Both the position numbers and the translations under genes were made by a program. From an uncultured Glaciecola sp. (GTDB taxonomy: Bacteria; Pseudomonadota; Gammaproteobacteria; Enterobacterales; Alteromonadaceae): 64,000 nt of DNA. This document shows, piece by piece, positions 17,249 to 59,295 of the stretch. Numbering within the stretch: the first letter of the stretch is position 1; every line of letters begins with the position of its first letter. The notes under the pieces are model-generated. The model saw nothing but the letters and a program-made list of their open reading frames with translations, did not search any database and was not told where the DNA came from. Location: the NCBI GenBank assembly GCA_905479945.1, contig CAJQOP010000059.1:1-64000 (forward strand). Reading direction: 5' to 3'.

Positions 17249-17276
17249 TTTGATAGCATTACTTTGATAGCATGAC
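17249..17276. repeat. 14-bp tandem duplication upstream of the DAHP synthase gene
   Basis: TTTGATAGCATTAC at 17249-17262 is followed by TTTGATAGCATGAC at 17263-17276 and a partial third unit (TTTAATAGC). It lies about 50 bases upstream of the GTG start. Confidence 0.85.
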
Positions 17277-17401
17277 TTTAATAGCTTTTGCTTTCTTATA
17301 TTTCAATTCACTAAAAATTCGTTAACTCAGGAGCTTGTCTTGAAGAATGTTTCACCTAAAAAAATAAAAGCTAAATGCAGAACCGACAAAAAGATATGCG
17401 T

Positions 17402-17449
17402 TAATTCAAAGCTGCACTAATTCAAAGCTGCGCTAATTCAAAGCTGCGC
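17402..17449. repeat. 16-bp tandem triplication
   Basis: Three consecutive units of TAATTCAAAGCTGCGC, with one A-for-G difference in the first, between the divergently placed 3' end of btuD and the DAHP synthase 5' region. No hairpin with a T-run accompanies it. Confidence 0.95.
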
Positions 17450-17475
17450 TAAGCTAAATAATAACATAGGGGCTT

Positions 17476-21880: not shown

Positions 21881-22858
21881 TTAACCCAGTATTTTAGGTT
21901 GTTTGACTAAACTATAAATAAATAATGGGCCGCCGATGGTTGCGGTCAACATTGAAACTGGCACAATCATATCAAATAACCATTCGTTTATTAGTGCAGT
22001 CATAATCAGCAGAACGGCTCCCATGATGGCAGAAACCGGCAGCACAACTCGATTGTCATGACCAATAATTTGTCGAACAAAGTGTGGTATTAAAAGTCCA
22101 ATAAAAGCAATGCTGCCCGCAATTGAAACGGCAGTACCGACCAAAAGTGCCGCCAAAATCAAAACTTTTCTTTCAAACTTAATAGGGTCAATGCCTTTTA
22201 ACTGTGCCGCTGATGCCCCCAAATAAAGCCAATTGAATTTAGTCCCTTGGCATAATAATAAAGTGCCCGAAATCATAATAATAGGCAAAGCAAAAGCCAG
22301 ACTAGTGTAATTAGTATTATGTAGGCTACCCATCAACCAAAAACTCAAGTTTTTAATCGACTGTGGCGGTGCGTAAATAAATAACCAACCAATGATAGCG
22401 CCCGCAATAGTCGAAATACCAATGCCCGCAAGTATTACAGCACTCATAGAAGATCTAAGTCTTCTGGCCAAAGCATATATAACAAAACTGCTCATTAACG
22501 CGCCAACAAAGCAAGCAATAGGTAAAATGTAATACGAGAGCGCTTCCGTTTGTGAACTGGCTAATGTCAAACTTCCTGTTAGCAAAACAATGGCCGCCAT
22601 CAAACTAGCACCGGCGCTAATACCGATGATTCCTGGATCGGCTAATGGATTTCTTAGTAGTACTTGTAACGCGGCTGAACTCAATGCAATAGCACTGCCT
22701 ACGGCAATGGCTGTTAGTAGAACAGGAAGTCGTATATTGAGAATAATATGTCGTTCAATATCGGACGAAAGCCACGTTATGCCTTCAGCAAATATAAATA
22801 ATAAAGCAGAGGATATGAGAAGGAAACTAGCCCAATAAATTGGTTTATTGTTTACCAT
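21881..22858 (-). CDS. btuC: FecCD-family permease, probably vitamin B12 permease BtuC
   Basis: 325 residues with about nine to ten membrane helices. Family motifs: RLPVLLTAIAVGSAIALSSAALQ, NPLADPGIIGISAGA, GSIAFIGLLIPHFVRQIIGHDNR and the C-terminal GGPLFIYSL. It assembles as a dimer with BtuD. The assignment to B12 rests on the BtuD-like ATPase encoded downstream. The start region is a 15-bp triplication: three identical ATG contexts, with the only good ribosome binding site (AAGGTG) next to the outermost copy. The two outer copies open five-codon ORFs that end TAA directly before the next ATG. Confidence 0.87.
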   Translation of the reverse strand: MVNNKPIYWASFLLISSALLFIFAEGITWLSSDIERHIILNIRLPVLLTAIAVGSAIALSSAALQVLLRNPLADPGIIGISAGASLMAAIVLLTGSLTLASSQTEALSYYILPIACFVGALMSSFVIYALARRLRSSMSAVILAGIGISTIAGAIIGWLFIYAPPQSIKNLSFWLMGSLHNTNYTSLAFALPIIMISGTLLLCQGTKFNWLYLGASAAQLKGIDPIKFERKVLILAALLVGTAVSIAGSIAFIGLLIPHFVRQIIGHDNRVVLPVSAIMGAVLLIMTALINEWLFDMIVPVSMLTATIGGPLFIYSLVKQPKILG

Positions 22859-22892
22859 TTACTTGTTTGCCATTTACTTGTTTACCATTTAC
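22848..22892. repeat. 15-bp triplication duplicating the btuC start codon
   Basis: Three tandem units (TTGTTTACCATTTAC on the plus strand, one base different in the middle unit). On the minus strand each unit carries ATG, GTA or GCA, AAC, AAG and TA, so copies one and two read as ATG plus three codons and then TAA, immediately followed by the next ATG. Confidence 0.95.
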
Positions 22893-58045: not shown

Positions 58046-58162
58046 GACAAATAGCTACTAAGTGCTTACAACTTCAATTAATTTCAATTAAAAATGTAAT
58101 AAACTCACCACAGACTAGACTATGTAAGATATAGGCAACAAGCTAATAATAGTGAAGGCACT

Positions 58163-58188
58163 TTGAGTAATAAATTTGAGTAATAAAT
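58163..58188. repeat. 13-bp tandem duplication of the ECF start region
   Basis: TTGAGTAATAAAT occurs twice. The first copy, next to AAGG, reads TTG plus five codons then TAA. The second copy is the start of the sigma gene and has no Shine-Dalgarno of its own. Confidence 0.95.
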
Positions 58189-58718
58189 TTGAACAAGTGA
58201 TTAAGGATTACGGTGGCTTATTATCAAGAGTTGCTAGCACCTATGAAGCAAACGACAGCGTAAAACAAGAGCTGTATCAAGAAATCTGTGTGGCAGTATG
58301 GCAAGGCTTACTCAACTTTAAAGAACAAGCTAGCCTAAAAACCTACATATTGAGAATTGCACATAACCGATGTGTTACTCATGTCACCAAAGAATCAAAA
58401 CTACCGAAAGGCGCCTCGTTTGATGATGCTGATAATTGCACCATGGACGAAGCTGATCTGGCGGCAGCAAACAGTATTGCTAATTTTGACACTGCCTCAT
58501 CTATTGAAGCTAGCTTAATACAGTCACAAAAGTTAAATAAGCTGTTAACGGCAGTGCGAAAACTGAAACTTCCTGCTCGGCAAATTATTACACTTTCAAT
58601 GGAAGGATTAAGCTACCAAGAAATAGCTGAAGTTACAGGTTTAACAGTGACAAACATTGGTGTATCGATTACTCGGATTAAGAAAGAATTACAGAGGCAA
58701 TTGCAAGATGAAAAATAA
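58176..58718 (+). CDS. ECF RNA polymerase sigma factor
   Basis: 180 residues. Region 2 (VKQELYQEICVAVWQGLLNFKEQASLKTYILRIAHNR) and region 4 (LKLPARQIITLSMEGLSYQEIAEVTGLTVTNIGVSITRIKKEL) are complete. The TTG at 58176 gives MSNKFEQ; an in-frame GTG at 58197 is an alternative. The 13-bp duplication puts the ribosome binding site next to a decoy copy instead. The next gene overlaps by 11 bases and encodes a four-helix membrane protein, a likely anti-sigma partner. Signal unknown. Confidence 0.87.
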   Translation: MSNKFEQVIKDYGGLLSRVASTYEANDSVKQELYQEICVAVWQGLLNFKEQASLKTYILRIAHNRCVTHVTKESKLPKGASFDDADNCTMDEADLAAANSIANFDTASSIEASLIQSQKLNKLLTAVRKLKLPARQIITLSMEGLSYQEIAEVTGLTVTNIGVSITRIKKELQRQLQDEK

Positions 58719-59295
58719 TCAATCAGAAAATAACGACCACGACGAGCTTGGCTCGCTATGGCAGGAGCAAACTGAAATGAATTTAAACCTGAGCGAAATT
58801 AAAAAACTGGCCGATTCACAACGCTGGAAACAACGCTTTTATATGTTTATGGATTTACTTAGCCTTACGCCATTTTTGCTGATTTTATTTTTGAAAATCG
58901 AGCTTTCCTTGACGCTACAAGTCTTTATTGCATTGTGTTTTGTCTCATCAATAATCATGATAATTTACTTTGTAAAGCTAAGATGGGCAAGCGCATTTAG
59001 TCATCAAAAAAACACCGAAGACTTTACTCAGAATCTGTTAGTGCAACTACACAACAACGCACGGATCGCATATATTAATAAACATTCAGCATGGATAATG
59101 ACAATTGCAGTGCTTATTTTTATCAGCTTTAATGCATGGCTTATGGGCTGGGATGGTGACAAAGCTTTCAGCAGTCTCTTAGCTGCCTCATTGTTATCTA
59201 TATTACTGTTTGTGCCTTGGTATATCTGGGCAAAAAAACGACAAATTAGATTTGAGAGAGAAGCGCAAAGTATAAAAGACCTACTATCTGAGTAA
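58708..59295 (+). CDS. Membrane protein, candidate anti-sigma partner
   Basis: 195 residues from the ATG at 58708, overlapping the sigma-factor stop by 11 bases. GAGG (58692-58695) lies about 12 bases before it. N-terminal 45 residues are acidic and soluble (NNDHDELGSLWQEQ), followed by four membrane helices in two pairs (about 50-90 and 132-175) and a basic tail. No zinc motif HxxxCxxC is present, so it is not a ZAS anti-sigma. The operon arrangement and overlap make a regulatory partner likely, but the family is not recognised. Confidence 0.7.
   Translation: MKNNQSENNDHDELGSLWQEQTEMNLNLSEIKKLADSQRWKQRFYMFMDLLSLTPFLLILFLKIELSLTLQVFIALCFVSSIIMIIYFVKLRWASAFSHQKNTEDFTQNLLVQLHNNARIAYINKHSAWIMTIAVLIFISFNAWLMGWDGDKAFSSLLAASLLSILLFVPWYIWAKKRQIRFEREAQSIKDLLSE

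Follow-up and report, generated by a model that had tools for sequence, protein, structure and literature searches.

A tandem duplication across the start of an ECF sigma factor gene in Glaciecola is probably a tolerated, lineage-specific by-product of slippage

Contingency loci can undergo phase variation through a tandem repeat that lies across the initiation region. Coupling of a start codon to a preceding stop has been described as termination-reinitiation, for gene pairs whose stop and start lie within a window of -8 to +6 nt; an overlap of -8 is common among such pairs, after -4 and -1, and reinitiates less well than shorter overlaps (PMC10666635). In the leader of iraD, the stop of a short upstream frame, ORF27, overlaps the start of the regulator gene; this frame encodes 27 aa, is controlled by CsrA and was tested by mutation (PMC5574718). 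In the Streptomyces SigR-RsrA pair, a GTC start codon of the sigma gene keeps the anti-sigma factor in excess, and UUG is named as one of three start codons accepted by IF3 (PMC5472188). With regard to the duplications themselves, the topA R168C mutator of E. coli yields tandem duplications of 2-19 bp in galK, independent of existing repeats (PMC6954433).

Here we analysed the start of an ECF sigma factor gene in a 64,000-nucleotide stretch of DNA from an uncultured Glaciecola sp. (the window), where a 13-bp tandem duplication leaves two TTG codons in different frames. The features referred to in the text, including a comparable one at btuC, are as follows.

58095-58100, forward strand: putative ECF-type -35 element TGTAAT (family motif)
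58117-58122, forward strand: putative ECF-type -10 element AGACTA (family motif), with an overlapping AGACTA 5 bp upstream (AGACTAGACTA)
58155-58158, forward strand: AAGG, weak Shine-Dalgarno-like site 4 nt before TTG1 (anti-Shine-Dalgarno duplex about -3.9 kcal/mol)
58162-58174, forward strand: duplication copy 1 (direct reading and TRF)
58163-58183, forward strand: decoy mini-ORF opened by TTG1 (six codons, then TAA), sharing 8 nt with the sigma ORF
58175-58187, forward strand: duplication copy 2 (direct reading and TRF)
58176-58718, forward strand: ECF sigma factor of 180 aa, start TTG2 (Pfam Sigma70_r2 and Sigma70_r4_2 and TIGR02937, all over cut-off)
58188-58192, forward strand: partial third copy TTTGA, the microhomology (TRF; TTGA 13 nt apart in the KUL10 ortholog)
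58197-58199, forward strand: alternative in-frame GTG, no Shine-Dalgarno in front (about -2.2 kcal/mol), judged an unlikely start
58708-59295, forward strand: putative anti-sigma factor, probably a membrane protein (hydrophobic stretches by eye), with an 11-nt overlap of its ATG and the sigma stop
22844-22892, reverse strand: 15-bp repeat at the btuC start, with two mini-ORFs before the working ATG 22858

The 13-bp unit TTTGAGTAATAAA stands in two perfect tandem copies (58162-58187), followed by TTTGA (58188-58192); TRF reports a period of 13, 2.4 copies and a 100% match. The first-pass annotation had described a duplication that sets AAGG beside a first TTG whose frame soon stops, and direct reading bears out this geometry. 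AAGG adjoins TTG1 (58163-58165) with a spacer of 4 nt, itself short; the frame from TTG1 reads TTG AGT AAT AAA TTT GAG TAA and ends after six codons at the stop 58181-58183; and the duplication is exact. The working start, TTG2 (58176-58178), lies 13 nt past TTG1 in a different frame from the mini-ORF and, as the same annotation had it, lacks a usable ribosome binding site: no Shine-Dalgarno stands at normal distance, and the spacing from AAGG is 17 nt. The sigma frame is closed upstream of TTG2 by an in-frame TGA at 58164-58166. Together, the mini-ORF stop and TTG2 form TTGAGTAA, an overlap of -8 nt that falls inside the -8 to +6 reinitiation window.

This junction resembles those of termination-reinitiation pairs (PMC10666635) in that stop and start overlap as NTGNNTRA within the window; unlike the pairs described in that report, the upstream frame is no longer than six codons, the downstream frame opens with TTG, the arrangement arose by a duplication in one lineage, and reinitiation is predicted. 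The likeness to iraD (PMC5574718) lies in a regulator gene whose start is overlapped by the stop of a short ORF in the leader. The sigma mini-ORF differs from ORF27 in having six codons rather than 27 aa, and ORF27 is CsrA-controlled and mutation-tested.

Slippage at the 5-bp microhomology TTTGA is the probable origin of the duplication. At the homologous place in Glaciecola sp. KUL10, which carries a single copy, AAGG is followed after 6 nt by TTG AGT CTA CAT TTT GAA, with TTGA repeats 13 nt apart; these provide a microhomology from which slippage would yield such a duplication. The slippage invoked in the first-pass annotation thus stands as a probable origin; as a means of translation control, discussed below, it is not supported. 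A fifth-order Markov model built from the window and eight other stretches gave 1.0 Mb of sequence with one perfect tandem of at least 10 bp, so the sigma-start duplication is no chance match; with 57 perfect tandems of that size in a 1.14-Mb sample of the genome, it is also unexceptional for this genome.

The encoded protein has sigma regions 2 and 4 and no other Pfam family listed, as expected of an ECF sigma factor, in which region 3 is absent. Matches at E 1e-20 occur in 106 of the 246 genomes of the family, at 30 loci at least; the orthologs were drawn from among the matches listed, which cover a minority of these genomes. Forty-eight sources entered the set (the window, L002-L013, L031-L042 and L194-L216); merging ten identical rows and leaving out the distant L009-L013 (<38% identity) gave 33 distinct orthologs including the window, and the distant loci L014-L030 and L043-L060 lay outside the set. 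The 32 relatives are 43-57% identical to the window sigma factor, the nearest named ones belonging to Glaciecola sp. KUL10 (57%), Glaciecola sp. MH2013 (55%) and Agaribacter marinus (54%). The 13-bp duplication is absent from every relative read (0/32). Position 5 of the protein is F in 29/33 orthologs, window included, and copy 2 preserves both the sigma frame and this conserved F5.

Across the 33 orthologs the sigma start codon is TTG in 21, GTG in five, CTG in two and ATG in five, making 28/33 non-ATG, with the start set by hand in eight (L005, L006, L008, L038, L040, L041, L042 and L194) and ambiguous in L210, which has in-frame ATGs upstream. Background usage of ATG is 83% (727/871) in our sample of this genome, by a crude start predictor. 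Because the sigma relatives are not independent samples, these start counts, like the promoter and overlap counts that follow, overstate significance. The TTG starts of relatives (20/32) often, though not always, stand behind an AGGA- or GGA-like site. Given the general selection against UUG starts reported in PMC5622118, a sigma family that keeps UUG starts is notable, and our literature search returned no match joining 'ECF sigma factor' with 'UUG start codon'. The Bowmanella orthologs L040 and L042 have apparent CTG sigma starts behind AAGG or AGGA.

Upstream of the gene, GTAA followed by GACT 21-23 nt on was found in 27/33 ortholog upstream regions, window included (26 at exactly 22 nt), whereas mononucleotide shuffles average 0.2. 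We take this motif to be of ECF type, and its place before the gene's own start suggests auto-activation by the sigma factor. The longer form TGTAATN{15,17}AGACTA has only one other match in this genome. Downstream, the sigma stop of every relative (32/32) is overlapped by an ORF 188-206 codons long. Its start, as chosen by the script, is ATG in 32/33 and GTG in 1/33; in the window it settled on an ATG that lies 58 nt beyond the sigma stop, and 58708 was adopted from the family pattern. The downstream protein matched no Pfam family over the cut-off, no NCBIfam model at E 0.001 and no anti-sigma domain; it is a putative anti-sigma factor.

The family as computed thus pairs a non-ATG sigma gene (28/33) with an ATG next gene (32/33). 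With SigR-RsrA (PMC5472188) it shares a poor sigma start codon, conserved in the family, and an overlapping next gene; unlike in that system, the sigma codon is mostly UUG, which IF3 accepts according to that paper, and the partner, probably a membrane protein, has no known anti-sigma domain. Taken together, non-ATG sigma start, ATG partner and promoter motif point to a sigma factor that regulates its own gene and is weakly translated, in the manner of SigR-RsrA. An ECF family with a sigma start held weak would broaden the idea, drawn from SigR-RsrA, that a sigma factor has to be translated below its partner.

The sigma-start duplication belongs to a large class in this genome. We surveyed 1,140,381 bases, or 28% of the genome (the window, L068-L087 and L128-L167), a sample that is not random: some contigs contributed whole stretches, others their first 20 kb. 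Perfect tandem duplications with a unit of at least 10 bp number 57 in this sample and ten in 1,200,000 bases of 12 congeners, an excess of about sixfold (binomial p 8e-10). With imperfect arrays included, the counts are 183 and 89, and units of 8-9 bp are not clearly in excess (34 in 1.14 Mb vs 29 in 1.2 Mb). The four best-sampled congeners, at 200 kb each, have one, two, zero and zero perfect tandems. Three others indicate that this genome may not be alone in its excess: G002, with four perfect tandems in 60 kb (67 per Mb), equals it in density, and G008 has two in 60 kb and G005 one in 40 kb. In the literature found on Glaciecola tandem repeats and genomes, no title or abstract opening dealt with such an excess. 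Unit length is a multiple of 3 in 22 of the 23 fully coding duplications and in 15 of the 33 intergenic ones; the coding duplications have thus come through selection in living cells and are not, as a class, assembly errors. In 38/57 the repeat runs on past its second copy for 4 bp or more, as slippage at a microhomology (or a third partial copy) predicts.

We consider it probable that the 13-bp duplication is a lineage-specific by-product of slippage, and that the sigma factor is still made, at a reduced level that the cell tolerates. Slippage between two pre-existing TTTGA sequences 13 nt apart would have created the duplication, as one among many short tandem duplications accumulating in the genome. 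The sigma start would thereby have shifted 13 nt off its Shine-Dalgarno, with the old start left behind as the six-codon mini-ORF. Part of the sigma output would come from ribosomes that terminate at the TAA at 58181-58183 and reinitiate at TTG2, the remainder from weak direct initiation at TTG2. As a -8 overlap reinitiates less well than shorter ones (PMC10666635), we expect, as the likeliest outcome, that sigma is translated at a reduced level and in part by coupling. A point against this reading is that reinitiation across such an overlap, at a UUG without a Shine-Dalgarno, could be so poor that the sigma gene is nearly silent. The loss would be tolerated because sigma translation appears to be held low in this ECF family in any case, mostly weak sigma starts (UUG, GUG and CUG) being set against the ATG of an overlapping putative anti-sigma gene under a putatively auto-activating promoter. 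The sequences themselves show the duplication, its absence from the relatives read, the excess in the genome sample, the conserved weak start and the promoter motif; from these we infer reinitiation, reduced output, anti-sigma function, auto-activation and tolerance. If so, one random short duplication can produce a mini-ORF and an overlapping start in a single step, a plausible route for the birth of upstream ORFs. A leader structure that hides the start was also considered and rejected, the folding energies of the duplicated and single-copy leaders being similar (about -13.2 and -12.3 kcal/mol).

A harsher reading, which we regard as unlikely, holds that the duplication crippled sigma translation and that the gene is decaying. 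The 17-nt spacing between the Shine-Dalgarno and TTG2 and the weakness of TTG as a codon speak for it. Yet there is no damage to the ORF, to either sigma domain, to the downstream gene or to the promoter motif, and copy 2 keeps the frame and F5.

The first-pass annotation had gone further and, taking the sigma gene together with btuC, suggested that slippage controls translation initiation in this genome. Applied to the sigma gene, the 13-bp copy number would vary in the population and set sigma output: one copy would give direct initiation from the Shine-Dalgarno at TTG1, and two or more would leave only the decoy plus reinitiation. A perfect repeat with a 5-bp microhomology can indeed contract or expand, and btuC does share this kind of start structure: its two mini-ORFs, MVNK* and MANK*, precede ATG 22858, each stop directly adjoining the next ATG. 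(The btuC repeat is imperfect and was therefore missed by the perfect-repeat count.) A further start repeat occurs in the ortholog L209, as an independent 7-bp triplicate AAGTGAA across a GTG start, where a decoy GTG mini-ORF overlaps by 4 nt. Start-spanning repeats are thus present in 2/33 members of the sigma family (the window and L209), and the L209 repeat is a point in favour of the control idea.

Against this stand the shortness of the array, at two 13-bp copies, and its distribution. Relatives carry a single copy, the case in which the annotation had allowed that its idea would fall: the 13-bp unit is found in 0/32 and the 15-bp btuC unit in 0/11 relatives read, the btuC start being extrapolated in 8/11 (alignment from residue 19-35). 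The sigma repeat is like a contingency locus in spanning the initiation region, and unlike one in having only 2.4 copies and in not being conserved, the 7-bp start repeat of L209 being unrelated to it. The mini-ORF geometry shows no enrichment either: mini-ORFs ending -8 to +6 nt from the start occur in 12/33 orthologs, where shuffled leaders average 11.95, and we rejected the decoy mini-ORF as a conserved feature of the sigma family.

Nor do duplications concentrate in initiation regions, as they would at contingency loci. The crude start predictor, run on the genome sample, gave 871 starts; among all 57 duplications, one overlaps a predicted start and five lie within 20 nt of one. For the 34 that touch non-coding sequence, none overlaps a predicted start (one if TTG2 is the start), compared with 1.8 at random, and three lie within 20 nt, compared with 3.8 under random placement. 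Duplications that are genome-wide, in frame inside genes and no commoner at predicted starts than random give no support to a control system, and slippage-tuned control of sigma output is in our view quite improbable. More speculative still, and very improbable, is that start micro-duplications serve a duplication-prone lineage as a heritable rheostat, through the copies of the 13-bp sigma unit and likewise of the 15-bp btuC unit. If this were true, each extra 13-bp copy would add a further decoy start and move the UUG further from the Shine-Dalgarno, and slippage would step sigma output down or back up. The sigma and btuC start duplications look like by-products.

It is highly unlikely that translation begins at GTG 58197 and that the duplication is an irrelevant part of the 5' leader. 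This GTG, which the annotation had named as a start whose use would speak against its proposal, is in the sigma frame and was picked over TTG2 by the crude predictor. It has no Shine-Dalgarno in front, and we judge it the wrong start because the conserved F5 would be lost. An assembly or sequencing artefact is barely credible, for although the window lies on contig C59 of a draft of 132 contigs that is 90.5% complete, the copies are perfect and the coding duplications of this genome, unlike artefacts, keep frame.

The survey also points to a natural bacterial lineage in which short tandem duplications are in excess and in which their cause can be sought. The duplications resemble those of the topA R168C mutator (PMC6954433) in being short and head-to-tail, the perfect units counted here measuring 10-36 bp. 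They differ in that most extend beyond two copies, which does not fit independence of existing repeats, and in that TopA of this genome looks complete, its HMM match being full. Loss of ExoI, of the DHHA1 (RecJ-type) family or of TopA was discarded as a cause, with matches to each present in this genome. Loss of the PolA 5'-exonuclease was likewise set aside, the N-terminal domain being present in 13/13 genomes and its aspartate-containing motifs reading, by eye, the same in this genome as in two relatives (the alignment used this genome and these two; the other three of its six rows, in a wrong frame or orientation, were ignored). MutS matches in overlapping pieces, at C7:102488-103927 (model 2-435, one TAG) and C61:25028-26962 (model 235-840). 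All 12 congeners have one near-full-model match with no stops. The split in this genome may be an assembly break.

Further repeats came to light in the course of the survey. In PolA (L191), the linker after the exonuclease domain carries a protein-level tandem repeat, VSLSPVSLSP, that is absent from the two aligned relatives. Two tandem repeats (17249-17285 and 17397-17452) lie in the leader of the gene for a class II DAHP synthase, and the likely start of that gene is, by eye, GTG 17198 behind AAAGGA rather than ATG 17249.
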